From contig NZ_CALADU010000071.1 of assembly GCF_937890665.1 (NCBI RefSeq), positions 1 to 16,466 of the forward strand: DNA of 16,466 bases, read 5' to 3'. A model generated the notes under the pieces. The model was given only the letters and a program-made list of their open reading frames with translations. It made no database searches and was not told the origin of the DNA. Source of the stretch: an uncultured Subdoligranulum sp. GTDB taxonomy: Bacteria > Bacillota_A > Clostridia > Oscillospirales > Ruminococcaceae. Both the position numbers and the translations under genes were made by a program. The stretch's first letter is position 1. Each line of letters opens with the position of its first letter. Shown in pieces: positions 1,897 to 16,082 of this stretch.

Positions 1897-1925
1897 TTGA
1901 CAGGAATTTTCGTATTTGATATATT
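1897..1925 (+). promoter_or_regulatory. Sigma-A promoter of module A
   Basis: TTGACA at 1897-1902 and TATATT at 1920-1925 are separated by exactly 17 bases, a near-consensus vegetative promoter. Transcription would begin around 1931-1934, giving a leader of about 60 bases before the SIS gene at 1992. No other promoter of this quality is seen before 6393, so it probably drives the whole 1992-6114 block. Confidence 0.87.
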
Positions 1926-1943
1926 GTTATTACAAAATAACAA
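1924..1943. promoter_or_regulatory. Operator-like inverted repeat over the -10 box and start site
   Basis: TTGTTATT (1924-1931) and AATAACAA (1936-1943) are perfect 8-bp inverted arms around ACAA. The repeat overlaps the end of the -10 box and the expected transcription start, the classic position for a repressor. The GntR/UTRA protein at 3877 in the same operon is the obvious candidate, which would make the operon autoregulated. That link is inference. Confidence 0.62.
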
Positions 1944-1948
1944 TTTGG

Positions 1949-1975
1949 CTGCCTTTGCCTCACCAGCAAAGGCAG
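1949..1975 (+). promoter_or_regulatory. Leader hairpin just upstream of the SD of the first gene
   Basis: CTGCCTTTGC (1949-1958) pairs perfectly with GCAAAGGCAG (1966-1975) across a seven-base loop. The hairpin stands in the mRNA leader and ends one base before AAGGAGG (1977-1983), which lies eight bases from the ATG at 1992. There is no T-run, so it is not a terminator. It may protect the mRNA 5' end or tune ribosome access. It does not resemble a riboswitch class I know. Confidence 0.6.
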
Positions 1976-1991
1976 GAAGGAGGCAGTGAAT

Positions 1992-2996
1992 ATGCAAATG
2001 GTCAATTTCAATGAGGAACAGATTATTGCCAATGGGGCAGTGATCTATAACCAGCGGCCGAAAATCGAGGCCATCGCAGATTCCATTTGGAAGAATGGTT
2101 TTGATTTGCTGCTCTTTACCAGCAGCGGCGGCTCCCAGGCAATGTTGGACCCCTTCGCGTTTTATATCCGGCATATGTCGCGGCTGCCGGTAGAAAGTGT
2201 GCTTTCCGCCAATCTGATGACGGGAGACTGCAATCGGATCGGTCCTAAGACGGTTGCGTTCCTGACTTCCAAATCCGGCAATACCGCAGAAACAGTGGAA
2301 GCGGCCCGTTGGCTGAAAGCACAGGGCGTGCGCCTGTTTGCGGCGGTAGGGCAGGCGGATTCTACGCTGGAATCGATTTGTGATGACACCGTTGTTTATG
2401 GTGCAGGCCGTCCGCAGGAAATGATATTCTACCTTCTCATTGGCCGGTTGCTGTATCACAGCGGAGATTTTGAAGCCTACCCGCGCTTTGCAGATGAGTT
2501 GCAGGGGCTGGCGCGGGCGTTGGCGGAAGTTCGCAAACAGGCGGATGAAAAATGCCGCCGCTATGCGTTGGACTATTGCAAGGAACCCTACAATATTTGG
2601 ATCGGCAGCGGCGATCTGTGGCCTACTGCATACAGTTATAGCATGTGTGTGTTGGAAGAAAGCCAATGGATCCGCACAAAAAGTGTTTCCAGCCCGGAGT
2701 TTTTCCATGGTACGCTGGAGCTGCTGGAGGACGATGTCTGCACGACGCTTCTGCTGACAGAAGGGCCTACCCGTGCGCAGGATGAGCGTGTCAAATCTTT
2801 TGCGGCTCGTCATACCCAAAAACTTACCTGTTTTGACACAAAGGACTATGAGCTGCCCGGTATCAGTGATGAATTTCGCAAGCTGCTCAGTCCAGTCGTC
2901 ATGGCGGCTGTGCTGCAGCGTATCAGCAAGAATATGGAACAGATCACCGGCCATTCGCTGGATATCCGCCGGTATTACAGGAAAGAGAGTTATTGA
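1992..2996 (+). CDS. FrlB/FraB-type SIS sugar-amine phosphate deglycase
   Basis: This is a 334-residue protein with two SIS (sugar isomerase) folds. The first carries SSGGS near residue 40 and SKSGNTAETVEAARWL near residue 92, the phosphosugar-binding loops. The second carries EESQWI and SPEFFHG. In Salmonella FraB, the fructose-asparagine-6-phosphate deglycase, the catalytic pair is Glu214 and His230. Here Glu223 and His239 sit in matching context with the same 16-residue spacing, followed by EGPTRAQDERVKSF and a RRYY...Y end as in FrlB/FraB. The family splits a 6-phosphorylated fructosyl- or glucosyl-amine into glucose-6-phosphate and the free amine or amino acid in the cytosol. The start at 1992 is chosen by AAGGAGG eight bases upstream; GTG 1986 is too close to it. 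The kinase gene begins two bases after the stop. Which amine (lysine, asparagine or other) cannot be read. Confidence 0.83.
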   Translation: MQMVNFNEEQIIANGAVIYNQRPKIEAIADSIWKNGFDLLLFTSSGGSQAMLDPFAFYIRHMSRLPVESVLSANLMTGDCNRIGPKTVAFLTSKSGNTAETVEAARWLKAQGVRLFAAVGQADSTLESICDDTVVYGAGRPQEMIFYLLIGRLLYHSGDFEAYPRFADELQGLARALAEVRKQADEKCRRYALDYCKEPYNIWIGSGDLWPTAYSYSMCVLEESQWIRTKSVSSPEFFHGTLELLEDDVCTTLLLTEGPTRAQDERVKSFAARHTQKLTCFDTKDYELPGISDEFRKLLSPVVMAAVLQRISKNMEQITGHSLDIRRYYRKESY

Positions 2997-2998
2997 TT

Positions 2999-3850
2999 AT
3001 GAAACTGATTGCGTTGGGTGATAATGTCATAGATTCCTACCACAATACCGGCGAAAATTTCCCCGGAGGCAATGCGGTCAATGTGGCAGTCCATGCAGCG
3101 CGGCTGGGGGCCCAGGCTGAATATTTGGGCGCGTTCGGCGATGACGAAATGGCGCAGATCCTGATCCGGGCGCTGGCAGATAACGGGGTCGACAGCAGCC
3201 ACTGTCCTGTATTGCCGGGGCGCACGACCAAGGTTTGCCGCTATGATGTGATCGAAGGGGAGCGGACCTTCCTTGGTATCGTCACGGGCGATACCTGGGT
3301 CGGACCGCTGCAAATCGGCGAGGATGAGTGGAGCGAACTGCGAACGGCAGACCTGATTGTGAGTAGTTGTAATGCCAAAATGCCGGAACAGATGTGTGCG
3401 GTAGAAGCACTGCCGGCCGTCTTTGCCTATGACTTTGGGGAAAAGGACAAGTATCGGACTTCGTCCTACTACGATGAAGTGTGCCACGGGATCGATCTGG
3501 CTATGTTCTCGTGCGAAAAGATGGAGCAGGCGGAATTTGCCGCGCTGTGCGCTCCGCTGCATCACCGCGGGGTGGTGCATGTACTGGCAACGATGGGGGC
3601 CGCCGGACAGATGCTGTCTGTGGAAGGAAAAATCATAAAAAAAGCTACCCAAATGGTGCAGGCAAGTGATACAATGGGGGCTGGGGACTCCTTCCTTGCG
3701 GCCTTCCTGTGCGACCTGTATGCAGCAGGATGGGAAAAAGGCCAGCCTATGTCGGAACAGGCTTTGCTGCATGCGTTGGCAGCAGGGCAGCAGGTATCGG
3801 CCCGCAACTGTATGGAACAAGGCGGGTTTGGGGTTCGGGCGTCCCTGTGA
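2999..3850 (+). CDS. frlD: FrlD-type PfkB sugar kinase (fructosamine 6-kinase-like)
   Basis: This 283-residue PfkB/ribokinase-family kinase opens with KLIALGDNVIDSY, close to the IGDNCVDIY start of E. coli FrlD. The substrate-side motif GGNAVNVAVHAARLGA starts at Gly23, and the ATP/anion-hole signature DTMGAGDSF spans 224-232 with Asp230 as predicted base. FrlD phosphorylates fructoselysine at C6, making the substrate for FrlB. Here the gene starts two bases after the SIS stop, so the pair is almost surely co-translated. Of the in-frame starts, ATG 2999 has a modest purine-rich site (GGAAAGAGAG) about nine bases upstream and gives the FrlD-like N-terminus. The substrate could be fructoselysine, fructose-asparagine, glucoselysine or another Amadori compound; family assignment is much firmer than substrate. 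Confidence 0.84.
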   Translation: MKLIALGDNVIDSYHNTGENFPGGNAVNVAVHAARLGAQAEYLGAFGDDEMAQILIRALADNGVDSSHCPVLPGRTTKVCRYDVIEGERTFLGIVTGDTWVGPLQIGEDEWSELRTADLIVSSCNAKMPEQMCAVEALPAVFAYDFGEKDKYRTSSYYDEVCHGIDLAMFSCEKMEQAEFAALCAPLHHRGVVHVLATMGAAGQMLSVEGKIIKKATQMVQASDTMGAGDSFLAAFLCDLYAAGWEKGQPMSEQALLHALAAGQQVSARNCMEQGGFGVRASL

Positions 3851-3876
3851 CAGATTCAATAGAAGGGAATCAAATA

Positions 3877-4629
3877 ATGATCGAACTCAATGGACTGCAT
3901 CTGGATAAAAACAGCGCAGTGCCTCTTTACGAACAGCTGCGGCAGGGGCTTTTGCATGCTATTACCAGCGGCTGCTTCCCGGCGGGGGCCAAACTCCCCA
4001 CGGAAGAAGCGCTCTGTAAAGCCTTTGATATTTCACGTCCGGTTGCCCGCCAGGCTTACAATGCGTTGATCGAAGAAGGGGTGGTAGAGCGTACGCGCGG
4101 CAGGGGAACTTTTGTGCGTACGCCGGATACGCGGGGGCGCTTCCTCAACCAGCAGATGAGTTTTGAGAAAGAGATGACGCTGCTTCACCTGGAGCACCGT
4201 ACGGAAGTTTTGCGTGCGGACTGGGTCAGCTATACACCGGCCCTGTTTGGCAGGTTGGAGCTTTCCCGGCAGGACCGCTGCTATCATCTGGTGCGCATCC
4301 GTTATGTCAGTGGAAAGCCCTTTGTTCTGGTAGAAAACTATATTCCGGAGTCTATTTTTCCGGGCATTGATGCATATGATTTTGGGAAAAATTCCCTGTA
4401 TGATGTGCTGGAAAATGTTTACCGTGTTAAAATTGTGAGGGCTCGCCGCACGCTGATGGCACAGACGGCTACGGCGGAATTTGCTTCGCTGTTTGCCGTG
4501 CACAGAGGTTCACCGGTACTGTATGTGGAAAACGTAGTTCGGGATCAGTTCGACCGCGCGATCGACCTCAGTAAAGAATATCTGGATGGAGTGACACAAA
4601 AATTTGAGTTTGAAGTAGTCAACCCATAA
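3877..4629 (+). CDS. GntR/HutC-family transcriptional regulator with UTRA domain
   Basis: The product has 250 residues. The N-terminal winged helix (about 16-80) has the GntR pattern PLYEQLRQGLLHAI, then LPTEEALCKAFDISRPVARQA, ending in the RTRGRGTFV wing. The rest (about 95-248) looks like the UTRA ligand-binding fold, with RVRYVSGKP-type and YVENVVRDQ segments and a short C-terminal strand. HutC-type members usually repress until a phosphorylated sugar or amino compound binds, and frl operons commonly carry one. I chose ATG 3877 because AGAAGGGA precedes it by about eight bases and the protein then starts right at the HTH domain; the longer upstream frame overlaps the kinase gene. The best candidate target is the inverted repeat at 1924-1943. 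Confidence 0.88.
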   Translation: MIELNGLHLDKNSAVPLYEQLRQGLLHAITSGCFPAGAKLPTEEALCKAFDISRPVARQAYNALIEEGVVERTRGRGTFVRTPDTRGRFLNQQMSFEKEMTLLHLEHRTEVLRADWVSYTPALFGRLELSRQDRCYHLVRIRYVSGKPFVLVENYIPESIFPGIDAYDFGKNSLYDVLENVYRVKIVRARRTLMAQTATAEFASLFAVHRGSPVLYVENVVRDQFDRAIDLSKEYLDGVTQKFEFEVVNP

Positions 4630-4637
4630 AATGCGGA

Positions 4638-4650
4638 GCGGGTGACCCGC
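4638..4650. repeat. Short perfect palindrome between regulator and HAD genes
   Basis: GCGGGT and ACCCGC flank a single G (4638-4650), nine bases after the regulator stop. The centre is too small for a stable RNA hairpin without opening pairs, and no T-run follows. It could be a protein-binding site or chance. Confidence 0.3.
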
Positions 4651-4674
4651 AAATTATGCCGAAGGGGGACGAAG

Positions 4675-6114
4675 ATGACACCGATCCGAGCGGTTATTTT
4701 TGATATGGACGGCGTACTGATCGACAGTGAGCCGGTTTATTTGCGACATGAGTGGGAACAACTGCATATTCGCTATCCATGGATCACGCCGGAAAGTCTG
4801 TACCCTACAATAGGGATGGCCAGTCAGGATTATATGCCTTTTATGGCACGTCTCTGCCGGCGGGAGAACGACGAGGCATTTGCGCAGGAGCTTCATGCCA
4901 TGAGCACTTCCTGCCAAGTGTGTTATCCGGAAATTTTGAATCCGCAGGTCCATCCGGTCCTGGCGCGTCTGCGTTCCATGGGATTACAGATCGCGCTGGC
5001 AAGCAGCAGCAGCCGGGCCAATATTCAGCGGGTGCTGGAAACATGCCGCTTGACCGATGCCTTCGATGTACTGGTCAGCGGTGAATCCTTTACGCGCAGC
5101 AAACCTGACCCGGAAATTTATCGGTACACCATGGGGCGCCTGGGGCGGCAGCCGGAGGAATGCCTGATCGTGGAAGACTCCACTTACGGCGTACAGGCGG
5201 GCGCGGCAGCCGGGGGCATCGTGGCGGCTCTGCGTGATGATCGGTTCCCTTTTGATCAGCGCGCGGCCCATCTGCATATCGAACAACTGACAGAGATTCC
5301 GGCGCTGGTAGCATGCGGCGGACGGAAGATCCGGGCAGCTTTCTTCGATGTGGATGGTACACTGATCGCCAGCGGTACGCATGCCATGCCGGGAGGAATA
5401 GTGGAAGCTTTGACGGCGCTGCGCCGCCGTGGCGTGGCGGTACTGCTCTGCACCGGCAGACATAAACTGGAGATCGAAGAAGAAAACCTGCTGCCCGGCC
5501 TCACTTGGGATGGCGCGGCCTATATGAATGGCCAACTTTGCGAATGGCAGGGGCATACTGTGCAGGAAAACTGGATCCCAGCCGGTGATCTGCGGGAACT
5601 GCGGCGATTTTTGCAGCAACGGGGAAAAAGTTGTATATTTTTGGAAAAAAACTGCATGTATGCCAACCGGGTGGATGCGCGGATGGAGCGCGGTCAGGAG
5701 CAGGTGGGGACCGCTGTCCCGAAGGTACGGGGGATCGATGACCTGGAAACCAGAAAAATCGATCAGGCGATTCCGTATATTGCCCCCGAGGAGGAGGCAG
5801 AACTGTTGGCCCGAATGCCCAATTGCCAGATCAAGCGTTGGTCGCCTTTTGCAGTGGATCTGATCAGCAGGGAGGGCGGCAAACAGAATGGCATTCGTGC
5901 ATTGTGTACAGCCATGGGAATTTCCCCGGAAGAAACGATCGCTTTTGGAGACGCCGAGAATGATTTGGAAATGCTGCGCCTTGCGGGGATCGGAGTTGCT
6001 ATGGGCAACGCGTTGCCGCAGGTACGTGACTGCGCCGACTATGTAACGGGTACGGTCGAGCAGGGGGGCGTGGTGGAAGCTTTACACCATTTCCAGCTGA
6101 TAGAAGAACGATAG
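4675..6114 (+). CDS. Tandem HAD fusion: beta-PGM-like phosphatase plus Cof-type phosphatase
   Basis: This single 479-residue protein contains two complete HAD hydrolases. Domain 1 (about 1-212) has FDMDGVLIDSEP with nucleophile Asp10 and Asp12, SSSSRAN as motif II, SKPDPEIY as motif III and EDSTYGVQAG as motif IV, which is the beta-phosphoglucomutase/sugar-phosphatase subfamily with a helical cap. Domain 2 (about 220-479) has FFDVDGTL with Asp225 and Asp227, CTGRH and GDAENDLEML (Asp426, Asp430), typical of Cof/type IIB phosphatases with an alpha/beta cap. The position equal to beta-PGM His20 is Tyr22, which argues for phosphatase rather than mutase activity in domain 1. The frame is continuous, with no stop or SD at the domain joint. 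AAGGGGG six bases before ATG 4675 sets the start. A role in dephosphorylating sugar phosphates of this pathway is inference. Confidence 0.87.
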   Translation: MTPIRAVIFDMDGVLIDSEPVYLRHEWEQLHIRYPWITPESLYPTIGMASQDYMPFMARLCRRENDEAFAQELHAMSTSCQVCYPEILNPQVHPVLARLRSMGLQIALASSSSRANIQRVLETCRLTDAFDVLVSGESFTRSKPDPEIYRYTMGRLGRQPEECLIVEDSTYGVQAGAAAGGIVAALRDDRFPFDQRAAHLHIEQLTEIPALVACGGRKIRAAFFDVDGTLIASGTHAMPGGIVEALTALRRRGVAVLLCTGRHKLEIEEENLLPGLTWDGAAYMNGQLCEWQGHTVQENWIPAGDLRELRRFLQQRGKSCIFLEKNCMYANRVDARMERGQEQVGTAVPKVRGIDDLETRKIDQAIPYIAPEEEAELLARMPNCQIKRWSPFAVDLISREGGKQNGIRALCTAMGISPEETIAFGDAENDLEMLRLAGIGVAMGNALPQVRDCADYVTGTVEQGGVVEALHHFQLIEER

Positions 6115-6392: not shown

Positions 6393-6421
6393 TTGACGGA
6401 GGGAGCAAAAGAGAGTATCCT
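6393..6421 (+). promoter_or_regulatory. Probable promoter of module B
   Basis: TTGACG (6393-6398) and TATCCT (6416-6421) are spaced by 17 bases and point toward the MFS gene at 6514. The -10 box is weaker than consensus. This is the only promoter-like pair I see before the transporter block. Confidence 0.5.
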
Positions 6422-6431
6422 ATGGTCAAGA

Positions 6432-6462
6432 TAATTATTTAAGAAACTTTAGAATATAATTA
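6432..6462. promoter_or_regulatory. AT-rich inverted repeat with TATAAT, upstream of the MFS gene
   Basis: TAATTAT (6432-6438) and ATAATTA (6456-6462) are perfect 7-bp arms 17 bases apart. TATAAT at 6455-6460 would be an excellent -10 box, but no good -35 box is found at the right distance. This suggests either an activator-dependent start or an operator downstream of the 6393 promoter. Confidence 0.38.
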
Positions 6463-6513: not shown

Positions 6514-7695
6514 ATGGACCAGACAGGTTGGAAGGAGGACGAATTTCCCCGGCGGTTGTTTTTGCTGTATGTGCTGTTCTATGCGGGGCAGGCTATCTAC
6601 AACACCTACCTGAACTTGTATCTGTCTTCCGTAGGATTGAGCGATACACAGATCGGCATGACAGTTTCCGTTTCCACGGCGGTATTGCTGGCGGCTCAGT
6701 TGGGCTGGGGCATCCTCAGCGACCGGGCCCGGACCAAGAACCGGGTGCTCTTGCTGCTTTACGCTTTTATGGCGGTCTCCAGCTTACTGTTTTACCTGAG
6801 CACAGACTTCTGGTTCCTGCTTTTGGCGGTCACACTGTTCTCCGCGTTTATCAATCCCATTGTGCCGCTACAGGATAACTACACGCTGGAATGCCTGGAA
6901 AAAAGCCGCTGGGATGGCCAGATCCGTATGGGCGGTACCATTGGCTACAGCATTACGGTATTGTTCATCGGGTTGCTTTTGCAGGACAGCTACCGCGCGA
7001 TTTTCTGGATGGTAGCGCTGTGTATGATGGCTTGCCTGCTGGTTTGCCGCGGGCTGCCAAAAGTACGTGGCTACCGCGGGAAAAGCAGTGGACGGGGTGG
7101 TTACCGGGCGCTGCTGCAGAATAAAAACCTGATCGGGCTCATCCTCATCAATCTTGTGTTCAGCAGCGGCTTGAACTTCTTCTATAACTTTTACCCGATT
7201 TATTATACTTCGATCGGCGGCGACAGTTCCCGTGTGGGAATGATGATGTTTGCCTGTTCGATATCCGAGATCCCGATGCTGTTCTTCATCCATCGGATCA
7301 TCAAAAAGATCGGCGTGCGGGGTACGCTGATCATGGCCGGGTGCGTTACGGTAGTGCGCTGGGGGTTGCTTTTCCTGCTGCGCGATCCGATCCTGGTCAT
7401 CCCGGTCAACCTGCTTCACGGTATTGGTTACACGGGCTTCAACTATTGCCTGGTGACCTACATAGCGCGCACGGTCCCCCGTGAGATGCGCGCGACCGGC
7501 CAGACCCTTAACGCCATTATCAGCAATGTGGTCTCGAAGATCCTGTTCGGCGTGGTGGGCGGCGTGGCCAGTGACCTGTTGGGCGTTGGGCCGGTAATGC
7601 TTGTGAATGCTGTGGTAATGGCGATTGCCGTTGCCGTCTTTGCGCGGTGGAGCGCATCCAATCCGTCTCTGGCGGGGAGTTCACACTCCCACTAA
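6514..7695 (+). CDS. MFS transporter, oligosaccharide/nucleoside symporter-like
   Basis: This 393-residue membrane protein has about twelve hydrophobic segments in two halves. The first loop carries the MFS motif LGWGILSDRARTKNR (about residues 67-81), where G-x-L-S-D-R is the loop 2-3 signature. The cytoplasmic linker near residues 185-205 is basic, and IRMGGTIGYS is typical of the MFS_1-like/LacY-type and PPP-type symporters. The likely role is proton-driven uptake of a sugar or sugar conjugate; export cannot be excluded. ATG 6514 is five bases after an AAGGGGGG run, and an earlier in-frame ATG at 6472 lacks such a site. The ABC importer gene starts 36 bases after its stop with no promoter or terminator in between, so it probably heads that operon. 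It might serve the fructosamine module, which otherwise has no transporter. Confidence 0.83.
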   Translation: MDQTGWKEDEFPRRLFLLYVLFYAGQAIYNTYLNLYLSSVGLSDTQIGMTVSVSTAVLLAAQLGWGILSDRARTKNRVLLLLYAFMAVSSLLFYLSTDFWFLLLAVTLFSAFINPIVPLQDNYTLECLEKSRWDGQIRMGGTIGYSITVLFIGLLLQDSYRAIFWMVALCMMACLLVCRGLPKVRGYRGKSSGRGGYRALLQNKNLIGLILINLVFSSGLNFFYNFYPIYYTSIGGDSSRVGMMMFACSISEIPMLFFIHRIIKKIGVRGTLIMAGCVTVVRWGLLFLLRDPILVIPVNLLHGIGYTGFNYCLVTYIARTVPREMRATGQTLNAIISNVVSKILFGVVGGVASDLLGVGPVMLVNAVVMAIAVAVFARWSASNPSLAGSSHSH

Positions 7696-7731
7696 ATATT
7701 TATACCCATAAACTAAAGGAGGAAAAGATTT

Positions 7732-9042
7732 ATGAAAAACGCAAAACGAGCTTTGGCGCTGTTGTCTGCTGGTGCATTGGCAGTCGGCATGCTGGCTGGC
7801 TGCGGGGGCGGTACCTCGTCTTCCGCGGCGGCAGGGGGCGATTCCGCGACGGGTGAAAGCTCTGCAGCCGGTTCGTCTGAGGGCGGCGAGATCCGCGTGG
7901 TGACCTTCTTCGCGGGGTCGGACCAATGGGCGCCGGTCTGGAAAGAAGTTGTGGCGGATTACATGGCCGCAAACCCCGGCGTGACCATCATCGATGAAAG
8001 CCAGCCTACGGCCGGCGCCAACGACTTGTTCCGCACCAAAGTGCAGGCTGATGTGGCGGCCGGTACTCCGGCGGACCTGGTCCTGTTCTACAATGGCGCC
8101 GATATGACGACCCTGTCGGATTCCGGCCTGTTTGTGGACCTGAACACCTATCTGGAAGCTGATCCCGAATGGGCCAGCCACATCAAACCGGATGCGCTGG
8201 CGGCGGGCCAACAGGACGGCGTACAGTACTGCATCCCCTACATCGGCTTCTATGAAGGTCTGTTCTACAACAAGGGACTCTTTGACAAGTTTGGCCTGCC
8301 CGAACCCACGACTTGGGAAAACATCATCAATAGTGTCGAAACCTTCAAAGAAAATGGGATCGCGGCTTTCGCCGCGCCGCTGCCCAAGGCCTCCTACATT
8401 ACCGAGGCGTTCATCCTCTCTCAGGTAGGTGCGGAAGGCCAGCAGAACTACTTTGACGAGTCCTGGGCTCCGGCGCTTTACCGTATCAAGGATCTGTACG
8501 ACGCAGGGGCTTTCCCGGCTGACGCGATGACCATGAGCGAGGACGATGTCCGCGTACTGTTCCAGGACGAAAAGGCTGCCATGATGATCAACGGCAGCTG
8601 GTGTGTCTCGGCTCTGAAAGACAACGAGAATATGCGCATTATCTCGATGCCGACACTGCCGGATGGCGTTGGCGGTTCCAACGTGGCGCTGTCTGGTTAT
8701 GGCAGCGGCTGGTATATGAGCAAGGAAGCTGCGGAACGGGATGACCTGACCCTGAACTTCCTCAAGTACCTCACCAGCCCCGAAGTGATGACCCGCTTTA
8801 TTGCCATGGGCGGCAGCCCGGCCATCGATTGCGAGACGCCCGAAGGCGTGACTCCGCTGGAAAAGAGTGCGCTGGAGATGCTGGAAACGGCTGAAAGTAC
8901 TCGCCCGGCTATCGACAGCCAGGTCACCCGCGAAGCGTGGGCTGTCCTGACGGAACCCGGTATCCAGTATATCGTAGAAGGGGAGCGTACCCCGGAAGAC
9001 TTGCTGGCAGAAGCCAAATCGATCAATGACAGCGCTATCTGA
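7732..9042 (+). CDS. ABC sugar-importer substrate-binding lipoprotein
   Basis: The 436-residue protein opens with a basic N-terminus, a hydrophobic stretch and the lipobox LAGC, with Cys24 as the lipidated residue. A low-complexity Gly/Ser/Ala linker follows to about residue 50. The body begins with IRVVTFFAGSDQW, then DLVLFYNGADM, GLFYNKGLFDKFGLPEPTTWE and AAMMINGSW, the usual sequence landmarks of family 1 extracellular sugar-binding proteins. It would be anchored outside the membrane and deliver a mono- or oligosaccharide to the two permeases downstream. AAAGGAGG (7715-7722) lies nine bases before the ATG. The gene is separated from the permeases by a strong terminator, which should make it the most abundant product of the operon. 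The ligand cannot be predicted from sequence alone; neighbours suggest an amino-sugar glycoside. Confidence 0.92.
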   Translation: MKNAKRALALLSAGALAVGMLAGCGGGTSSSAAAGGDSATGESSAAGSSEGGEIRVVTFFAGSDQWAPVWKEVVADYMAANPGVTIIDESQPTAGANDLFRTKVQADVAAGTPADLVLFYNGADMTTLSDSGLFVDLNTYLEADPEWASHIKPDALAAGQQDGVQYCIPYIGFYEGLFYNKGLFDKFGLPEPTTWENIINSVETFKENGIAAFAAPLPKASYITEAFILSQVGAEGQQNYFDESWAPALYRIKDLYDAGAFPADAMTMSEDDVRVLFQDEKAAMMINGSWCVSALKDNENMRIISMPTLPDGVGGSNVALSGYGSGWYMSKEAAERDDLTLNFLKYLTSPEVMTRFIAMGGSPAIDCETPEGVTPLEKSALEMLETAESTRPAIDSQVTREAWAVLTEPGIQYIVEGERTPEDLLAEAKSINDSAI

Positions 9043-9066: not shown

Positions 9067-9094
9067 TAAGGCATAAGCGCTTCCCCGGCAGGAA

Positions 9095-9135
9095 CCCCGA
9101 ACGCTGGCCTGCTGCCGGTGTTCGGGGCCTTTTTT
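9095..9135 (+). terminator. Internal terminator between binding protein and permeases
   Basis: CCCCGAAC (9095-9102) pairs with GTTCGGGG (9120-9127). The stem continues inward for six more pairs (two G-U) to a five-base loop, and CC plus six T follow (to 9135). Partial read-through here would give high binding-protein and low permease expression. The next SD (AAAGGAGG, 9138-9145) begins three bases after the T-run. Confidence 0.88.
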
Positions 9136-9159
9136 AGAAAGGAGGGAACCTGACCCCCT

Positions 9160-10026
9160 ATGGTCCTCAAAAGCAAAAAGTGGTTTACTTTATTTATCCT
9201 TCCCGCGTCGGCCTTTATTGTCGTGTTCCTGCTTTACCCGTTGTTCCGCACCTTCTATTACAGCCTGACATCCTGGCGGAACTTTTCGGTCAAGCAAACC
9301 TTCATTGGTTTAGATAACTATCAGCGTTTGCTGGAAGATCCGGTGATCGGGATCGCCATACGCAATACCTTTATCATGATGGTGGGCGTGTTCATCTTCC
9401 AAATCGGTGTAGCATTGCTGCTGGCGCTGCTGGTAGCCAGCACCAAGAAGATGTTCAAAATCCTGCGCACGACCTATTTCATTCCGATCCTGATCTCGGC
9501 CACTGCCATCGGTTTGATGTTCAAACTGATTTACGGCTATGAATATGGTCTGCTCAATATTGTCCTGGAACTTTTCGGCAAGGAAAAGCAGGTCTGGCTC
9601 AATGAAGATACCTCGATATTCCTTGTTTCCATTCCGGTCATGTGGCAGTATGTAGGGTTCTATTTCGTGATCTTCCTTACGGGTATGTCCAAAATTTCCC
9701 CCGATATTTACGAATCGGCCGAACTGGATGGTATCCGTCCCTGGCAGAAGGCTGTTTATATCACGATCCCCATGATGCGGGATGTGTTGGCTTCGGCAGT
9801 AGTACTGGTCATTTCGGGCTGCTTCAAGGTGTTCGATATGGTCTATGTCATTACCAACGGCGGGCCGATGAACTCCAGCCAGCTGCTCAGTACCTACATG
9901 TACAGTATGGCATTTGAAAAATACAATGGCGGTTATGCCTCGGCCATTGCAGTACTGATGATTCTGTTGGGCATCCTGGTCACGGTGGTACTGCGCCGCG
10001 TGACGGAACCCCCGCGGGACAACTGA
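9160..10026 (+). CDS. ABC sugar permease, MalF/UgpA type
   Basis: This 288-residue membrane protein has six predicted helices. The first (WFTLFILPASAFIVVFLLYPLF) includes the LPA...F..YP pattern common to this group. The EAA loop that docks the ATPase reads YESAELDGIRPWQKAVYITIP (around residues 184-206, Glu188 and Gly191). It would form the membrane channel with the next gene. An in-frame TGA at 9151 rules out any upstream start. ATG 9160 is about 14 bases from AAAGGAGG, longer than usual, which may lower translation. No ATP-binding subunit is encoded in this window, so a shared MsmK-like ATPase elsewhere is likely. Confidence 0.92.
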   Translation: MVLKSKKWFTLFILPASAFIVVFLLYPLFRTFYYSLTSWRNFSVKQTFIGLDNYQRLLEDPVIGIAIRNTFIMMVGVFIFQIGVALLLALLVASTKKMFKILRTTYFIPILISATAIGLMFKLIYGYEYGLLNIVLELFGKEKQVWLNEDTSIFLVSIPVMWQYVGFYFVIFLTGMSKISPDIYESAELDGIRPWQKAVYITIPMMRDVLASAVVLVISGCFKVFDMVYVITNGGPMNSSQLLSTYMYSMAFEKYNGGYASAIAVLMILLGILVTVVLRRVTEPPRDN

Positions 10027-10040
10027 AAAGGAGGCCCACC

Positions 10041-10907
10041 ATGAACAACACGCAGATTCGATACCATAAAACCCCGCTGCAATGGGTGGTAACCTTTTTT
10101 AAATGGGCACTGTTGATTGCTTGGGCTGCCACGACCATTGTTCCGCTGGTTTGGGTATTGCTCAATTCCTTCAAGTCGTCGGACGAGATCCTGCGCAGCA
10201 GTCTTTCGCTGCCCACTTCGCTGGATCTGAGCAACTACGTTACCCTTGTCAACTATCCCGATGTCAACATTCCCCGCGCTTTCCTCAACAGCTTCATCAT
10301 TTCCGGCTCGGTGGTGCTTCTGGTCGTTATCTGTGCCAGTATGGCGTCCTTTGCTCTGGGACGGCTGAAGGTGCGCGCATCGACCATCATCATGGCGATA
10401 TTAACGGCGTGTCTGCTGGTCCCCAGCTTTGCTACCGTTATTCCGAACTTCGTCACCATCAGCCATCTGAGCTTTGCCAAAGGCAACTGGCTGGCTGCCA
10501 TTCTGCCCCAGACGGCGGGCAACCTGTGCTTCTCCACCATTATGATGACCGGCTTCATGCAGTCGCTTCCGCAGGAATTGGACGAAGCTGCCATTATAGA
10601 CGGTGCCAGCGTACCGACTGTATTCTTCCGTATCAGCCTGCCGCTGTGCCGGTCCATCATCGCTACAGTAGCTATCATGGTATTTGTGTGGAGCTACAAC
10701 GATCTGTTTACTTCGCTGGTCTATATCTCTGAACGCAGCAAACAGCCGATCTGTGTGATCCTGTCCATGGTAAGCAATATGTTCGGCACGGACTACGGCG
10801 CTATGATGGCTGCGGTAGTCGTCACGATGCTGCCGCTGATTTTGCTCTACATCGTAGCGCAGGAGCAGGTCGTTTCCGGCCTGACTGCCGGTGCGGTCAA
10901 AGGTTGA
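10041..10907 (+). CDS. ABC sugar permease, MalG/UgpE type
   Basis: This 288-residue protein has six predicted membrane helices and a cytoplasmic N-terminus ending FKWALLIAWAATTIVPLVWVLLNSFKS, characteristic of the second permease of CUT1 sugar importers. The EAA loop is ELDEAAIIDGASVPTVFFRI, with Glu182 in the conserved place, followed by LPL. GGAGG about eight bases before ATG 10041 sets the start. The gene follows the first permease by 14 bases, and the GH9 gene follows it by 38 bases, so transport and hydrolysis are coupled in one transcript. Confidence 0.92.
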   Translation: MNNTQIRYHKTPLQWVVTFFKWALLIAWAATTIVPLVWVLLNSFKSSDEILRSSLSLPTSLDLSNYVTLVNYPDVNIPRAFLNSFIISGSVVLLVVICASMASFALGRLKVRASTIIMAILTACLLVPSFATVIPNFVTISHLSFAKGNWLAAILPQTAGNLCFSTIMMTGFMQSLPQELDEAAIIDGASVPTVFFRISLPLCRSIIATVAIMVFVWSYNDLFTSLVYISERSKQPICVILSMVSNMFGTDYGAMMAAVVVTMLPLILLYIVAQEQVVSGLTAGAVKG

Positions 10908-10945
10908 GCCCGATCCCAACCATTATCTATATAAGGAGAATTCCC

Positions 10946-12700
10946 ATGAAGATCCTGACCAATCACATGGGCTACAGCGCCCATGGCCCCAAGAAAGCTG
11001 TAATCCAGTGCGCAGCCGGTGAGGCTCCGCAGGCCTGCCGGCTGGTGGATGCTGCCGGGCGGGTGTGCCGCTCGTTGCTGCCGGAAGCGGTGGGCGAGGT
11101 GGCCCACTGGAACCAGGGCGAATTCTGGACGGTTGATTTTTCCGATTATACGGTGGAAGGCGAATATTACGTCGAAGCAGAAGGTTCGTCCGGTTGTGTT
11201 CGTTCCCATCCCTTTGAGATCAGCGCCAAGGTGCTGACGATGCGGATGATCAGCGCCGTAGGCTACTACTTCAAGGCGCAGCGCGATAGTGGCGAGTGGC
11301 TGGCTGCCGATCGTACCCTGCACTTCCGCGGTCCGCGGGAAGGCATCGTGGATGCCCACGGTGGCTGGTATGACGCCACGGGCGATTATGGCATCCATCT
11401 GTCGCACCTGTCCCACAGCACCTGGCACAATCCTCAGCAGGTCCCCTTCAGCGCCTATACCTTCTTTAAAGTTCACGAGTTCCTTGCTGCCAGCGGCAAC
11501 GAAGAATATACGATGGTCAAGCGCCGGGCACTGGATGAGGGGTTCTGGGGAGCGGATTTCCTGCTGCGGATGCGGGCGCCTTCGGGCAGTTTCTACCGTA
11601 CGATCAGCCGAGCCAAAGCGCTGGACGCGGTTCACGGGACCCGTACCCTGGGGTTCGAATATAAAGGCAGCAGCGATCAGTTCAGCGATACGGCAGCTAC
11701 GGCCGACAGAGAAACGGTAACGGATGAAAATTACGAATGCAGCCTGCGCTGTGGCGGCGGGCTGGCCATTGCGGCGCTGGCCGCGGCAGGGCGCTTTTTC
11801 TATCTCGGAGCGGAACATACGCAACAGGAGTATATTCTGGCTGCCAAAGAAGCCTGGGCGCACCTGTCCCGCCATAACGAGGCGTATACCAACGACGGTC
11901 AGTGGAACCTGGTGGATGAATACTGTGCCTTGATTGCCGTTACCGAACTTTGGCGTACGACCGGCGAGTATGAGTATCTTACCGCTGCCCGGGATATGGT
12001 TTCCCGTATTCAGGCGCGCGCAGTGCCGGCAGGACCGCAGATGCGGCGCCTGGAGATGGCCCCTGGCAGACCGTTCTATTCGGCGGCTGACGAAGGAATG
12101 CCGCTGATTGCACTGCTGCAATATGCGCAGGTAGAACCCAATGCCGGTGAGGCGGAAGCAGCCCGTGTGCTGGCGGAAGAGATATTCCGTTACCAGCTGC
12201 AACTGACGGACAGCGTGCCCAATCCCTTTGGGTATCCGCGAATGGAGTGTCTGGATGGCGACACCATCCACGCCAAGTTCTTCTTCTCCCACCAGAGCAC
12301 GGCCGCGCCCTGGTGGCAGGGCGATAACGCCAGACTCGGATCGTTGTCCGCTGCGGCGGCCATGCTCGGCCGTACGACCCGGGATAAGGTGCTGGCGGCC
12401 CGTTGCCGCAGAATGGCACAGGATACGTTGGATTGGATCATGGGCTGCAATCCCTTCGATTCCTGCATGATCGAAGGATATGGCTACCACAACATCCAGT
12501 ACTTCTACCTGGGACGGTACGATTTCCTGAACTGCCCCGGCGGTATCTGCAACGGGATCACCAGTGGCCTGCATGACGAGGACGGGATCGAATTCGTTAC
12601 ACAGCCTACGGAAGAAGTCAATGACAACTGGCGATGGGCTGAACAGTGGATCCCGCATGCCAGCTGGTATCTCTATGCCATGGCACTGAAATTTGAATGA
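10946..12700 (+). CDS. Cytosolic GH9 glycosidase, probable exo-glucosaminidase-like enzyme
   Basis: This 584-residue protein has no signal peptide, so it is intracellular. An N-terminal Ig-like CelD_N domain (about 1-95, starting KILTNHMGYSAHGPKKAV) precedes the alpha/alpha barrel. The GH9 catalytic-base motif is usually D-A-G-D. Here it is WYDATGDYG (Asp143, Asp147), one residue longer. The general-acid region near the end reads WRWAEQWIPHASWYLYA, with Glu566 the likely acid in place of the usual N-E-x-A. GH9 is known mainly for secreted endoglucanases, but it also includes intracellular exo-beta-D-glucosaminidases acting on chitosan oligomers. Import genes upstream and an amino-sugar kinase and SIS enzyme downstream favour that role over cellulose breakdown. 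AAGGAG seven bases before ATG 10946 fixes the start. An alternative is cleavage of a glycosylated Amadori compound. Confidence 0.82.
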   Translation: MKILTNHMGYSAHGPKKAVIQCAAGEAPQACRLVDAAGRVCRSLLPEAVGEVAHWNQGEFWTVDFSDYTVEGEYYVEAEGSSGCVRSHPFEISAKVLTMRMISAVGYYFKAQRDSGEWLAADRTLHFRGPREGIVDAHGGWYDATGDYGIHLSHLSHSTWHNPQQVPFSAYTFFKVHEFLAASGNEEYTMVKRRALDEGFWGADFLLRMRAPSGSFYRTISRAKALDAVHGTRTLGFEYKGSSDQFSDTAATADRETVTDENYECSLRCGGGLAIAALAAAGRFFYLGAEHTQQEYILAAKEAWAHLSRHNEAYTNDGQWNLVDEYCALIAVTELWRTTGEYEYLTAARDMVSRIQARAVPAGPQMRRLEMAPGRPFYSAADEGMPLIALLQYAQVEPNAGEAEAARVLAEEIFRYQLQLTDSVPNPFGYPRMECLDGDTIHAKFFFSHQSTAAPWWQGDNARLGSLSAAAAMLGRTTRDKVLAARCRRMAQDTLDWIMGCNPFDSCMIEGYGYHNIQYFYLGRYDFLNCPGGICNGITSGLHDEDGIEFVTQPTEEVNDNWRWAEQWIPHASWYLYAMALKFE

Positions 12701-12722
12701 TCAAGTGAAGGAGAGTATCACA

Positions 12723-13820
12723 ATGAATATGATGGATTATATCCGTGAACAGCCGGAGGTGTTTGCCAAAGCGATGGCGGGGCGTACGGCCCTGGCGGCT
12801 CCCTTTGTGGAACTGTTCCGTGCTGTGGACCCGGACCGCCTGTACATAGTGGCAAGCGGAACTTCTCGCAATGCATCGGCTACGGCGGCCCCGTTTATGT
12901 CTCAGGTACTGGGAATGGATGTGACGGTCAGCGCGCCTTCCCGTCTGTATGCGGTGTATGGTCAGCGCCCGCTGATGATCTATGTCTCCCAGGGAGGAAA
13001 CTCCACCAACACTATTGCGGCTATGGAACGATTTGCCGACATTCCCGCGCTGGCCATGACCGGGGATCGGGGCCGTATTTGCGACCTGTGCCAGCACTAT
13101 GCCGAGATCCCCTGCGGCCCCGAAACCGTCGGCCCCAAGACCAAGGGCTATACGATGACGATCCTGGGACTTTATCTGCTGGCGCTGGAAGCGGCGAAAG
13201 CCACCGGACGCCTGGCCGCAAAGGATTACGAGAACTATATCGAAACGCTTACAGCGGCAGGCCGTGCGATGGCTGCCAATGTGGAAGCGACCGTTGCCTG
13301 GCAGAAAGCCAACGATGAAGCCCAGCGCGGGCTCAAGGTGGCGTACCTGGTCGGTAAAGGTCAGGCGCTGCGTATCGCCCAGGAAGGGGCGCTCAAAATG
13401 CAGGAGACCCTGCTGATCCCTACCGCGGCCTTTGATTTTGAGGAATTCCTCCATGGCCCCACCAGTTCGATCAAGCCGGAAGTGGCGGGCTTCTATCTGC
13501 TGCCGCCGGAAGGCGACCCGGATCGCCGCCGGATGCTGGATCTGATGGCCTATCACCGCAGCGTGTGCCCCCATGTCTATACGCTGGGGCAGGGAACGCC
13601 TGCGGACGGCCGGGACTGTGGCTTGCAGGTGACTGGCCAGTGGTACACCCAGCCGTTTGAATATATCCTGCCGATGCAGGTGATCAGTGCGGCGGTGCCG
13701 GCCGAACTGGGTATCGAAAATGCCAGCTTTGCAACCTTCCATAAGCTGGACCTGTTGCTGAACATCAAGTTCAAGGGCGCCGATGGCGAGACGGAGTATG
13801 TTCAGCCCGGTGCACATTGA
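12723..13820 (+). CDS. GlmS/NagB-II-like SIS aminosugar-phosphate deaminase or isomerase
   Basis: This 365-residue double-SIS protein starts nine bases after AAGGAG and 22 bases past the GH9 stop. SIS 1 has VASGTSRNASATAAPF (near residue 42) and YVSQGGNSTNTIAAME (near 87), the phosphosugar loops. SIS 2 has EGALKMQETLL, then EEFLHGP: Glu221, Lys225, Glu228 and His244 keep the spacing of E. coli GlmS Glu481, Lys485, Glu488 and His504. There is no glutaminase domain, so the family would use no amide donor and run as a deaminase (NagB-II: glucosamine-6-phosphate to fructose-6-phosphate plus ammonia) or a deglycase. The C-terminus (FHKLDLLLNIKFKGADG) does not look like the GlmS tail bearing the Schiff-base lysine, so the exact reaction is open. 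Placement between GH9 and an amino-sugar kinase supports amino-sugar catabolism. Confidence 0.8.
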   Translation: MNMMDYIREQPEVFAKAMAGRTALAAPFVELFRAVDPDRLYIVASGTSRNASATAAPFMSQVLGMDVTVSAPSRLYAVYGQRPLMIYVSQGGNSTNTIAAMERFADIPALAMTGDRGRICDLCQHYAEIPCGPETVGPKTKGYTMTILGLYLLALEAAKATGRLAAKDYENYIETLTAAGRAMAANVEATVAWQKANDEAQRGLKVAYLVGKGQALRIAQEGALKMQETLLIPTAAFDFEEFLHGPTSSIKPEVAGFYLLPPEGDPDRRRMLDLMAYHRSVCPHVYTLGQGTPADGRDCGLQVTGQWYTQPFEYILPMQVISAAVPAELGIENASFATFHKLDLLLNIKFKGADGETEYVQPGAH

Positions 13821-13838
13821 ATGACCCGGAGGTACGTT

Positions 13839-14798
13839 ATGGATTATGTACTGGGAATTGACTCCGGCGGCACGAACTTCCGCATCATGGCGGGGGACTG
13901 CCAGGGGAATGTTCTGGGCAGTTATACCGGCCGACCGGCCAACCATTACTGTGTGCCGGAAAAGGAGATCAAGCAGATCGTCAATCAGTCGCTGGACGCC
14001 TGCCTGGCTCAGTTTGGCGGCCGGCGGGAGGACTGCCGGTATCTCGTGGTGGGCACCACAGGACTGGACAGCGACCAGGACGGCGAATACCTGCGCAATC
14101 TCTACGGGCAGATCCCGGGGTTGAATTGCCCGCAGTGTATCATGAATGATGCAGAACTGGCTCACTATACGGTAACGGGCGGAAGCGGTGTGCTGGTGAT
14201 CTCCGGGACCGGGTCCATTGGGTTCGGTCGGGATCGCCTGGGGCACACGGCCCGGGCCGGTGGATGGTTTTGCACGATCCTGGGGGACGAAGGCTCGGGC
14301 AGCTGGGTCAGCAAGCGTGCGTTGCGTCAACTGGGCCGCTGGCTCGACGGCGCCGCTGCGGAGGGCGTTTTGATCCGCAGTCTGCGCAAGGAACTTTCCG
14401 TTCACACGCGGGAGGACCTCAATGACATTGCCGTTCGCATGGCGGACCCGCCCTGGAAACCGCCGGAGCTGGGTAAATTGGTGAATGAAGCGGCTGCGGC
14501 CGGGGACCCGGACGCGGTGGCCATTCTCAAAGAGGCTGCGGCGCTTATGCTGACCATCGCGGAAGATGTGGCAACGGCACTGCACCTGGATGAAAATGAA
14601 CCGGGTTTCCCGCTGGGAATCTGGGGGAGCAACATTCTGAAATCGCCGGTTCTGTGCGATGAATTCTGTGCGCTGGCAGCTAAGCGCTTTCCGGGGTCCC
14701 CGGTCGTGCGCCCTGCCCGTTCGGCCACCGAGGGGGCGGTCCAACTGGCGCTGGAGCGCCTGAATGCAGAAAAAGGTACGGCGCAGGCTGTTTCTTGA
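13839..14798 (+). CDS. BadF/BadG-family amino-sugar kinase (GlcNAc/GlcN kinase-like)
   Basis: This 319-residue actin-fold kinase has GIDSGGTN (residues 6-13) as phosphate-1 motif, VVGTTGLD, ISGTGSIGFG as phosphate-2 motif and GGWFCTILGDEGSGSW, the hallmark of eukaryotic-type N-acetylglucosamine kinases and bacterial glucosamine kinases of the BadF/BadG/BcrA/BcrD family. A C-terminal ARSATEGAVQLA segment matches the PVxGAxxLA adenosine-site region. The protein would phosphorylate the free amino sugar released by the GH9 enzyme for the SIS enzyme upstream. ATG 13839 is chosen because GGAGG ends six bases before it and the protein then starts directly at the kinase motif; ATG 13821 lies upstream of that site. 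The gene starts 18 bases after the SIS stop. Confidence 0.85.
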   Translation: MDYVLGIDSGGTNFRIMAGDCQGNVLGSYTGRPANHYCVPEKEIKQIVNQSLDACLAQFGGRREDCRYLVVGTTGLDSDQDGEYLRNLYGQIPGLNCPQCIMNDAELAHYTVTGGSGVLVISGTGSIGFGRDRLGHTARAGGWFCTILGDEGSGSWVSKRALRQLGRWLDGAAAEGVLIRSLRKELSVHTREDLNDIAVRMADPPWKPPELGKLVNEAAAAGDPDAVAILKEAAALMLTIAEDVATALHLDENEPGFPLGIWGSNILKSPVLCDEFCALAAKRFPGSPVVRPARSATEGAVQLALERLNAEKGTAQAVS

Positions 14799-14841
14799 AC
14801 GAAATGATCGAAGATTGTGCAGGAAAAAATGCAGGGACCGG

Positions 14842-14870
14842 TTGGAATTTGGTCAAATTCTTGGTACAAT
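14842..14870 (+). promoter_or_regulatory. Promoter of the ROK regulator gene
   Basis: TTGGAA (14842-14847) and TACAAT (14865-14870) are separated by exactly 17 bases, giving a leader of about 63 bases to the ATG at 14940. There is no terminator between the kinase stop and this promoter, so read-through from upstream is also possible. Confidence 0.78.
14845..14860. promoter_or_regulatory. Operator-like palindrome inside the ROK promoter
   Basis: GAATTTG (14845-14851) and CAAATTC (14854-14860) are perfect 7-bp arms around GT. The palindrome fills the spacer between the -35 and -10 boxes, overlapping the end of the -35. Negative autoregulation by the ROK protein is the likely use. I did not find a second full copy upstream of the MFS or SIS genes. 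Confidence 0.6.
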
Positions 14871-14939
14871 AGAAATTGATAAAAACAAATGATTTCCGCT
14901 GCCTGAATTTATACAAGCAGATTGATGGGAGGCCGTTTC

Positions 14940-16082
14940 ATGACATCCTATGTACCGGAATATCTGAAGGCCAAAAACCGGAAAACTGTGTTCGACCTGT
15001 TTTTGCGCGATCCGGAGCTTTCGCGTGCCGAGATCGTGCAGCGGACAAGGATGAGTTTCCCCACGGCAAGCAAAGCGGTGGATTTCCTCATCTCCCGCGG
15101 GATCGTGACCGAAATCGGGAGCGAGGAACCGGTCGGCAGACCGGGACGCCGCCGGCGGAGCCTTCGGTTTAATCCGTCGGCTTACGCTGCGCTGGCCCTG
15201 AACTTTGAAGGCCGCGTATTGGAAGTGGGGCTCGTAGACCTGGCCGGGCAGTTGTTGCAGTACGAGCAGCACGCGTTCGACTGTTTTCATCAGACGGAAA
15301 ATTATGCGCAACTGGCGCCCATGCTGCAGGCGGTCGTAGAAAAATCCCCTTGCCATGTGCTGGGCGTGGGGATCGGTATGCCTGCCGACATTGACAATAA
15401 TGCCGAAACGGTCGCGCTGTATTATGACCGGCAGGAGGTCGTCGTCCCGTTGAAAGACCTGTTTGGCGATTTGCTGCAGGCCCTGCAGTTGCAAGCGTTT
15501 TACGGCAACGATGTGAATCTGGCTTGCCTGGGGGAAGCGTCTTTGCGAGGCGGCGCAGGTGAAAAAATGAACCTTTGCTACCTCACGCTCGGAACGGGCT
15601 TCGGCGCCGGGATCATGAACAACGGGGCTATATGGCTCGGCGGTCATGGGCGTGCGGGCGAGATAGGCAACACACATCTGGGGGCGTTTGACCTCAAAGG
15701 TCCGCTGCAAACACAGATCGAGCCATTGGAGACCCGTATCAATCTGCAAGCGCTGGAAAAAGCCTTTGGGATCAATCTGTTGGATGATACAGTGCTGCCG
15801 CAGGATACACAGGACCAGATGGTAGAATTTTTACTGCCGGCGCTGGTTACAGCCGTTTACAATTTCAGTTTTCTGTTCGATATGGACCAGTTTGTAATGT
15901 CCGGCGCGATCCCGAATCGTCTGCCGGGATTGGCCGCCTGCACAGAGAGGGAAGTGAACCGGCTGCTGGCATATCGGAAACGCAGCGTTACGATCTCCAG
16001 ACCCGTTTCGGCACACTGTACCCTGATCGGTGCAGCGAACGCTGTATTTGAAGGTACGATCCTAAGTGAACTACAGGGATAA
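14940..16082 (+). CDS. ROK-family transcriptional repressor (NagC/XylR-like)
   Basis: This 380-residue protein has an N-terminal winged helix (about 18-68; SRAEIVQRTRMSFPTASKAVDFLISRGIV) and a ROK sugar-binding body. The N-terminal lobe lacks the D-x-G-G-T ATP motif; LNFEGR stands there, so it is a regulator, not a kinase. The later ROK signature is kept as GNDVNLACLGE (Asp191), YLTLGTGFGAGI and GRAGEIGN (Glu241). The usual EIGH histidine is Asn244, and the cysteine-rich zinc motif that should follow is missing, replaced by LKGPLQTQIEPLETR. GGGAGG seven bases before ATG 14940 sets the start, and TTG 14922 and ATG 14924 are rejected. It likely senses an amino sugar or its phosphate and controls the transport/GH9 genes and itself. 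Confidence 0.87.
   Translation: MTSYVPEYLKAKNRKTVFDLFLRDPELSRAEIVQRTRMSFPTASKAVDFLISRGIVTEIGSEEPVGRPGRRRRSLRFNPSAYAALALNFEGRVLEVGLVDLAGQLLQYEQHAFDCFHQTENYAQLAPMLQAVVEKSPCHVLGVGIGMPADIDNNAETVALYYDRQEVVVPLKDLFGDLLQALQLQAFYGNDVNLACLGEASLRGGAGEKMNLCYLTLGTGFGAGIMNNGAIWLGGHGRAGEIGNTHLGAFDLKGPLQTQIEPLETRINLQALEKAFGINLLDDTVLPQDTQDQMVEFLLPALVTAVYNFSFLFDMDQFVMSGAIPNRLPGLAACTEREVNRLLAYRKRSVTISRPVSAHCTLIGAANAVFEGTILSELQG

Follow-up and report, generated by a model that had tools for sequence, protein, structure and literature searches.

The window examined here, a stretch of 16,466 nucleotides from an uncultured Subdoligranulum sp. (contig NZ_CALADU010000071.1), carries two adjoining predicted gene sets, one for the recycling of heat-formed sugar-amino acid compounds (module A, 1986-6114) and one for the use of amino-sugar chains (module B, 6514-16082); the pairing is also found in other gut bacteria, and this points to a joint role for the two. 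The reading we favour, with a probability of roughly 55%, is that this island is a kinase-based relative of the gfr operon that does without a phosphotransferase system (PTS) and is joined to, and used with, an amino-sugar oligosaccharide locus. Functional coupling of the modules is likely, because their linkage recurs, a single clade of those module A genes that are linked to the GH9 glycosidase of module B is rejected on three proteins taken together, and in Parablautia a box for the GntR regulator of module A stands at the module B promoter. At its weaker core, the favoured reading is that a single mixed diet of Amadori, Heyns and amino-sugar compounds would be used by both cassettes.

Module A runs in the order SIS1-PfkB-GntR-HAD/HAD and module B in the order MFS transporter, ABC binding protein, two ABC permeases, GH9, SIS2, BadF and ROK, all head to tail on the forward strand, with gaps of at most 45 bases within module A, at most 117 from MFS to BadF and 123 between BadF and ROK. 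Taking 6514 as the start of MFS, the spacer between them measures exactly 399 bases, as the original prediction (made from the letters of the sequence) had it, and all gene families which that prediction named for the modules were found where it had placed them; its HAD phosphatases are present as two domains, in one fused gene and not in several. The transporters of the window all belong to module B, module A having none of its own, and the MFS gene was ruled out as a member of module A since it opens module B in genomes that lack A. The closest genome found is that of Candidatus Gemmiger excrementavium (genome G015, locus L053), with protein identities of 77-94%.

Recurrence of the linkage in related genomes

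A scan for GH9 with six short peptide patterns, over one genome per GTDB species, gave 56 loci. Window-type ABC genes (44% or more) accompany GH9 in 13 of these (L001, L002, L003, L006, L007, L008, L018, L027, L040, L041, L042, L043 and L051), and L053 has GH9 with a binding-protein fragment, its permeases not being seen. SIS1-PfkB-GntR is also present in four of these 14 loci, those of Parablautia (L001, L051), Hungatella effluvii (L008) and Gemmiger (L053), the modules being divergent in the two Parablautia species (G001, G014) and in Hungatella (G007) and head to tail in Gemmiger. A fifth genome (G063, L079) has no GH9, and its SIS2 (54%) and BadF (60%) face GntR-PfkB-SIS1 (82%) in convergent orientation. 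When SIS1 was searched for in 16 genomes with GH9-type loci an orthologue (66-87%) was found in four, and it was linked in all four. The original prediction had proposed a search for conserved gene order in relatives and had held that modules at unrelated loci would make the linkage incidental; as far as the samples go, the modules were found together again in Parablautia, H. effluvii and Gemmiger and, without GH9, in G063.

Co-occurrence of the SIS1/PfkB pair with GH9/SIS2/BadF, likewise proposed there as a check, was counted in two family samples. Among 397 genomes of the Parablautia family SIS1 matched at E<=1e-90 in eight, of which six orthologues (66-82%) were kept and two (G437, G601) were dropped, their SIS1 matching at 47% and lying beside ABC importer genes of their own; SIS1 is then found in six genomes, GH9 (E<=1e-80) in four and both in three (uncorrected p 7.7e-6, or 2.1e-5 with the dropped genomes kept and 3.8e-4 without the centre genome G001). 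In the 297 genomes of the Gemmiger-family sample, where six genomes with SIS1 at 35-38% were dropped, SIS1 is found in two, SIS2 (E<=1e-60) in three and both in two (uncorrected p 6.8e-5, or 0.0019 with the dropped genomes kept). Across the two samples the sets are adjacent in all five genomes that hold both, G007 having an additional unlinked GH9. Within the genus of G001, SIS1 occurs in 2 of 37 genomes and GH9 in 4 of 37, both together in G001 and G014, while the other two GH9 (42-46%) come without SIS1; in the genus of G015, GH9 is found in 1 of 35 (G015 itself), and at the level of the order SIS1 (E<=1e-100) is found in 1 of 394, again G015. A one-off chance neighbourhood is ruled out by the recurring linkage and the signs of repeated joining; searches of the open-licence literature found no paper describing the linkage of A and B.

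The signs that the modules may have been joined repeatedly come from a tree of SIS1, PfkB and GntR concatenated (10 rows, 883 columns, GntR missing for L082), in which Gemmiger groups with G063 and with gfr-type loci that carry a PTS (100/100), apart from Parablautia and Hungatella. This three-protein concatenation, which was chosen after the result for SIS1 had been seen, rejects the GH9-linked module A rows as a single clade (p-AU 0.0076), and it only weakly rejects the PTS-linked rows as a single clade (p 0.047).

Some of these loci have features of their own. At 6583-7543 of L053 the contig jumps from MFS residue 194 to binding-protein residues 109-178 and on to GH9 residue 519, about 5 kb less than in the window, by assembly collapse or a real deletion; with MFS, binding protein and GH9 reduced to fragments, the middle of module B in this Gemmiger is only partly seen. 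L054 and L055, both from Candidatus Gemmiger stercoravium, do not differ over bases 1-131, at the end of GH9, but from the stop codon on one continues with SIS2 and the other with different DNA. Beside SIS2-BadF in L079 (712-5831) lie an MFS gene and genes for a GH88-type hydrolase, a kinase of the ROK family and a protein of 558 residues that matches no Pfam model; this may be a locus for a uronate-containing glycan, which would draw on the SIS2-BadF pair as well.

Predicted promoters and operators

Each module appears to have its own promoter and regulator, in agreement with the original prediction. The predicted promoter of module A, TTGACA-17-TATATT (1897-1925, forward strand), has 11 of 12 matches in a region where two promoter-like sites were found against 0.8 expected, and that of module B, TTGACG-17-TATCCT (6393-6421, forward strand), has 9 of 12, with two found against 0.7 expected, and is weak alone. 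A predicted GntR operator (1923-1936) matches the palindrome ATTGTNATNACAAT with one mismatch and overlaps a further palindrome, TTGTTATT-N4-AATAACAA, at 1924-1943. At up to one mismatch ATTGTNATNACAAT has one match in the window against 0.03 expected, and it occurs in seven of nine other module A loci (L053, L079, L080, L081, L083, L001 and L051), L008 and L082 having it at two mismatches; with one mismatch allowed, Markov resampling of the sequence gives 0 to 0.2 expected matches per locus. Among ten control loci lacking module A one had a match (L014, distant from the cluster), and L083 holds one extra stray match.

The two Parablautia species each have a further GntR box 12 bases behind a -10-like hexamer that precedes module B (L001 5469, its other box being at 5171, and L051 5419), and the box at both promoters is the strongest sign that one signal may govern both modules; this operator swap would offer a clean natural test of whether they form one regulon. 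GntR repressors of this type are thought to sense phosphorylated intermediates, these being fructoselysine-6-phosphate for E. coli FrlR and glucosamine-6-phosphate or GlcNAc-P for B. subtilis NagR, in the part of PMC12632257 that bears on them.

Directly behind the -10 of module B stands a conserved box, the predicted ROK operator AATTATTTAAGAAACTTTAGAATATAA (6433-6459). A leave-one-out scan of seven loci ranked this box first in six and second in one, behind the same palindrome read on the opposite strand, and the window box ranked 1 of 32,880 positions, although the scan is partly circular because the sites were first chosen by eye. L014 is a fairer test as it lies outside the model, and there the top match (31.3 bits) is just upstream of the ABC permease genes; L018 contains a ROK gene, and its top match is weak (17.5), while there is no match in L003 (10.2), where the contig stops short of any ROK gene. 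The box is missing in the Parablautia loci and in L079, where a homologue of the window ROK regulator was not found either (L079 has the ROK-family kinase).

The separate predicted operator and regulator of each module in the window would also fit two independent cassettes for fructosamines and for amino-sugar oligomers respectively, gathered in a plastic genome region, with substrates of their own and with A using an unlinked transporter. We think this rather unlikely. B without A is common and A without B occurs in PTS loci, as such a history would have it, yet the five genomes with both sets (SIS1 with GH9 in 3 of 397, SIS1 with SIS2 in 2 of 297) all keep them adjacent; three arrangements occur, there are signs that the joining happened repeatedly, and in Parablautia the GntR box reaches the module B promoter. 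Against an unlinked transporter of the PTS kind, EIID was not found at E<=1e-20 in four of these five genomes (G001, G014, G063 and G015, the last a fragmented metagenome-assembled genome (MAG)), and G007 has only distant ones (31-34%).

Module A and its kinship with gfr operons

SIS1 (1986-2996, with a likelier start at ATG 1992) overlaps by four bases the gene for a FrlD-like PfkB-family sugar kinase (2993-3850, ATG 2999), which is followed by the GntR regulator with its UTRA domain (3877-4629) and the fusion of two HAD phosphatase domains, the first beta-PGM-like and the second Cof-like (4675-6114). The assignment of SIS1 to the FrlB/FraB type in the original prediction did not hold: the solved chains 2a3n, which we take to be Salmonella GfrF, and 8glr, whose N-terminal residues are those of the second of two SIS proteins in a gfr-type operon of Klebsiella (EIIA-B-C-D-SIS-SIS), match at E ~1e-71, against 7e-35 for the FrlB-like chain 3eua and weaker values for the remaining deglycase chains, and a plain FrlB/FraB type is ruled out by the far higher scores of the GfrF-type chains. 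The best NCBIfam model, FrlB, which is the sole deglycase model there, scores 65 bits where the cut-off is 430, no GfrF model being among the NCBIfam matches, and homologues at 68% (P0103, P0104, P0107) are labelled fructoselysine-6-phosphate deglycase by one source. On its homology SIS1 looks like a GfrF-type fructosamine-6-phosphate deglycase. PfkB has fructoselysine 6-kinase as its best NCBIfam model, at 136.9 bits against a cut-off of 247, and is related to it below equivalog level.

Orthologues of SIS1 at 78-82% occur in PTS-type fructoselysine/glucoselysine (gfr) loci which share the gene order SIS1-PfkB-GntR-HAD. Four such loci (L080-L083, from G411 twice, G391 and G690) read EIIB-EIIC-EIID-SIS1-PfkB-GntR-(EIIA)-HAD, with a GlmS-type SIS divergent alongside and EIIA not found in L083; L080, L082 and L083 have a HAD fusion with 50-53% identity to that of the window, and only the first domain is present in L081 (59%) and in L053. 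In the window and in L053, L054, L001, L051, L008 and L079, a search for PTS EIIA, EIIB, EIIC and EIID found none at E<=1e-3. These comparisons show module A to correspond to a predicted gfr core (GfrF-type SIS, PfkB, GntR and HAD) minus the PTS genes. PfkB is retained in L080-L083 and L094, where phosphorylation of the substrate would be expected from the PTS itself.

The pair E223/H239 of SIS1 (numbered from 1992) is presumably catalytic, as in GlmS and FraB. Nine of the ten rows linked to GH9, SIS2 or a PTS agree in every residue from MCVLEE to LELLE (L001 differs at one), and only four columns have disjoint residues between GH9-linked (n=5) and PTS-linked (n=4) rows, none of them in the catalytic motifs, so that SIS1 most likely still splits fructosamine-6-phosphates. 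That the GH9-linked SIS1 and PfkB have instead changed substrate and become a second glucosamine kinase and glucosamine-6-phosphate deaminase is the least probable of the alternatives we weighed: they do lie in the same locus as SIS2 and BadF, and archaea have SIS-type glucosamine-6-phosphate deaminases and PfkB-type glucosamine kinases, but neither the few disjoint columns nor the best match of PfkB, below cut-off as it is, points that way.

The fructosamine and glucosamine routes had been described as normally separate, which is too strong because gfr operons already pair both SIS types, a GlmS-type (GfrE) beside a FrlB-type (GfrF), in the portions of the published accounts used here; the Faecalibacterium gfr operon, though, is without gfrE (PMC12136445). 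For the substrates of GfrE and GfrF a figure legend in PMC12675984 contradicts the text in the portion concerned, and the text is followed here. The window resembles the gfr operon (GfrABCDEF; Salmonella, Enterococcus, Faecalibacterium) in its GfrF-type SIS, and the Lachnospiraceae gfr loci L080-L083 in the SIS1-PfkB-GntR-(EIIA)-HAD order with an adjoining GlmS-type SIS, but it lacks the mannose-family PTS, has ABC and MFS importers, GH9 and a BadF kinase, and its SIS2 lies outside the GfrE-like clade. With frlBONMD of B. subtilis and the fructoselysine cluster of Intestinimonas AF211 it shares an ABC importer, a kinase and a SIS deglycase, and with B. subtilis also a GntR-type repressor, as far as the descriptions consulted go; these name no glycosidase or second SIS/kinase pair, and the SIS1 of the window sides with 2a3n and 8glr over 3eua. 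All kinds of frl-operon gene (ABC importer, kinase, deglycase and GntR) are to be found in the window, but in two predicted units, with PfkB below the FrlD cut-off and a SIS1 of GfrF type.

Module B

GH9 (10946-12700) belongs to the exo-glucosaminidase/glucosidase subgroup of Vibrio VC0615, being 34-37% identical to full-length Vibrio rows and retaining the catalytic Asp/Asp/Glu of the subgroup, placed by motif. In VC0615 these are Asp140, Asp144 and Glu546, and the enzyme cleaves (GlcN)2 faster than cellobiose (PMC6096475, in the part that treats these points). The likeness to VC0615, which belongs with a chitin-utilization operon, ends at His for Tyr148 and a different loop at Trp220, and no other window genes were found beside the Vibrio GH9 loci L044-L047 and L049. 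Among 26 aligned GH9 relatives place 148 is Tyr in the two from Vibrio, and in the 24 others it is His in 22, Arg in L004 and Tyr in L030, the window having His; the Trp220 loop is replaced in the window and in the non-Vibrio rows. No secretion signal was seen in GH9 by eye, no predictor being used.

SIS2 (12723-13820) matches the isomerase half of GlmS, and NagB-II more weakly (52.8 bits against a cut-off of 430, below equivalog level). It is 26% identical to a Klebsiella GfrE-like protein which groups with SIS proteins of PTS loci (99/96, the GfrE-like row being a long branch), and since SIS2 falls outside that clade it was ruled out as a GfrE orthologue. BadF (13821-14798), a sugar kinase whose closest solved chain is a MurNAc/GlcNAc kinase, is only 26-28% identical to the BadF of L001, L051 and L008, and these group apart from the BadF of Gemmiger and spirochaetes (with a long-branch warning), a split which would make module B itself a mosaic.

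Upstream of GH9 lie the MFS transporter (6514-7695), first gene of module B in relatives as well, the ABC sugar-binding lipoprotein (7732-9042), whose closest solved chains are chitin-oligosaccharide binders, and ABC permeases 1 (9160-10026) and 2 (10041-10907), with 57-74% and 54-74% identity among window-type module B loci. No gene of the window was seen to encode an ABC ATPase, no profile search having been aimed at one. The ROK-family repressor (14922-16082) closes the module, and its true start may be ATG 14925 or 14940.

The GH9 family shows some variety in these loci. L012, L013, L017, L024 and L034 have a GH9 of the same group with window-type MFS family genes on both sides and no match to the window ABC genes; a second, longer GH9 (944 and 786 residues) shares the locus with the exo-GH9 in L027 (11801-14635) and L014 (15504-17864); and the first of two adjoining GH9 copies in L009 (2521-4263) has Gly for the water-holding Asp144 and may be inactive or changed.

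A candidate route and its weighing

With no PTS, PfkB would have to supply the phosphate, and the linked MFS or ABC importer or an intracellular GH9 would have to supply the fructosamine. Conjugates bearing a beta-linked amino sugar or glucose would be imported by MFS or ABC, and GH9 would remove the non-reducing-end sugar within the cell. A freed aldose amino sugar would be phosphorylated by BadF and converted by SIS2 to fructose-6-phosphate and an amine or ammonia, a freed fructosamine would be phosphorylated by PfkB and split by SIS1 into glucose-6-phosphate and an amino acid, and the HAD fusion would clear surplus sugar phosphates. GntR, sensing a phosphorylated intermediate, would control module A (and in Parablautia module B too), whilst ROK would control module B in the window.

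The shared precursor put forward in the original prediction, a beta-glycosylated Amadori compound or an amino-sugar conjugate cut by GH9, is a plausible hypothesis and is now better motivated. Carried further, the island may be a route for glycosylated Amadori and Heyns compounds, in which a disaccharide-type conjugate is imported by the ABC system and split by cytoplasmic GH9 and its halves are salvaged by the two kinase/SIS pairs; this we put forward tentatively, as a possibility on the doubtful side, and no paper on such a route was found in searches of the open-licence literature. B. subtilis is known to use free fructosamines through an ABC importer and a kinase, and a model for Intestinimonas has the same, in the portions of those studies used here; what differs in the window is GH9 and the second kinase/SIS pair. 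The gfr, frl and fra systems take free fructosyl-amino acids, in the parts of their descriptions consulted. If glycosylated forms were taken here, the share of heated food and feed that derives from disaccharides would have a route, an unassigned GH9 group would gain a testable substrate, and there would be a case of a nutrient operon that had swapped its PTS for a set of kinase, ABC importer and hydrolase.

Several observations count against a joint role of the two modules with GH9 as their link. G063 pairs the modules without GH9, which is therefore not a necessary link, the common partners being the two kinase/SIS pairs. Module B does not need A, since 12 of the 16 genomes searched hold GH9 or module B genes without a SIS1 orthologue (there is no match at E<=1e-20 in G002, G003, G005, G006, G008, G009, G010, G011, G012, G013 and G016, and G004 has only paralogues at 27-34%); in one of these, Gemmiger stercoravium (G016), SIS2-BadF-ROK is present and the contig starts inside GH9, which leaves module A undecided there. 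The co-occurrence values, uncorrected for relatedness and drawn from samples whose centres were chosen for holding GH9, weaken to p 0.02 in the Parablautia family without both Parablautia and to p 0.0068 in the Gemmiger family without G015, and SIS1 alone fails to reject a single GH9-linked clade (p-AU 0.089). In the window no GntR box was found at the module B promoter (at up to two mismatches 1923 is the sole site), and a ROK box without a GntR box does not show co-regulation there; in Parablautia the absence of the ROK regulator holds for the locus, ROK genes elsewhere in the genomes not having been searched for. As PTS-type gfr loci also carry PfkB, this kinase alone is no marker of a PTS-free route. 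Finally, the residues that face the 2-amino group in VC0615 (Tyr148 and Trp220, the placement of Tyr232 being uncertain) are not kept in the window GH9, so that glucosamine specificity is not established and even glucosamine as a substrate is uncertain.

The changing hydrolase beside a constant SIS2-BadF (GH9 in most loci, GH88-type in G063) would suit module A as a partner for repair or detoxification: free amino or reducing sugars within the cell would glycate amines, PfkB and SIS1 would recycle the fructosamines and the HAD fusion would dephosphorylate the overflow. No dedicated transporter for A was found in those loci, which fits. We regard this as improbable, because A should then be as common as B, yet most B loci lack it, and the same A genes adjoin a dedicated importer in PTS loci.

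Other features of the window

Upstream of module A (1100-1672) is a frame which by its motif we take to be flavodoxin-like; its first conserved motif is interrupted by an in-frame stop, a clear start is lacking, and the gene looks degraded. No RNA family reached its gathering score in the window and no tRNA genes were found in it. Nine contigs of the protein collection carry an identical SIS1 (1992-2993); the source of one labels it a Blautia massiliensis MAG, perhaps through a binning error, although the locus is nearest to Gemmiger.

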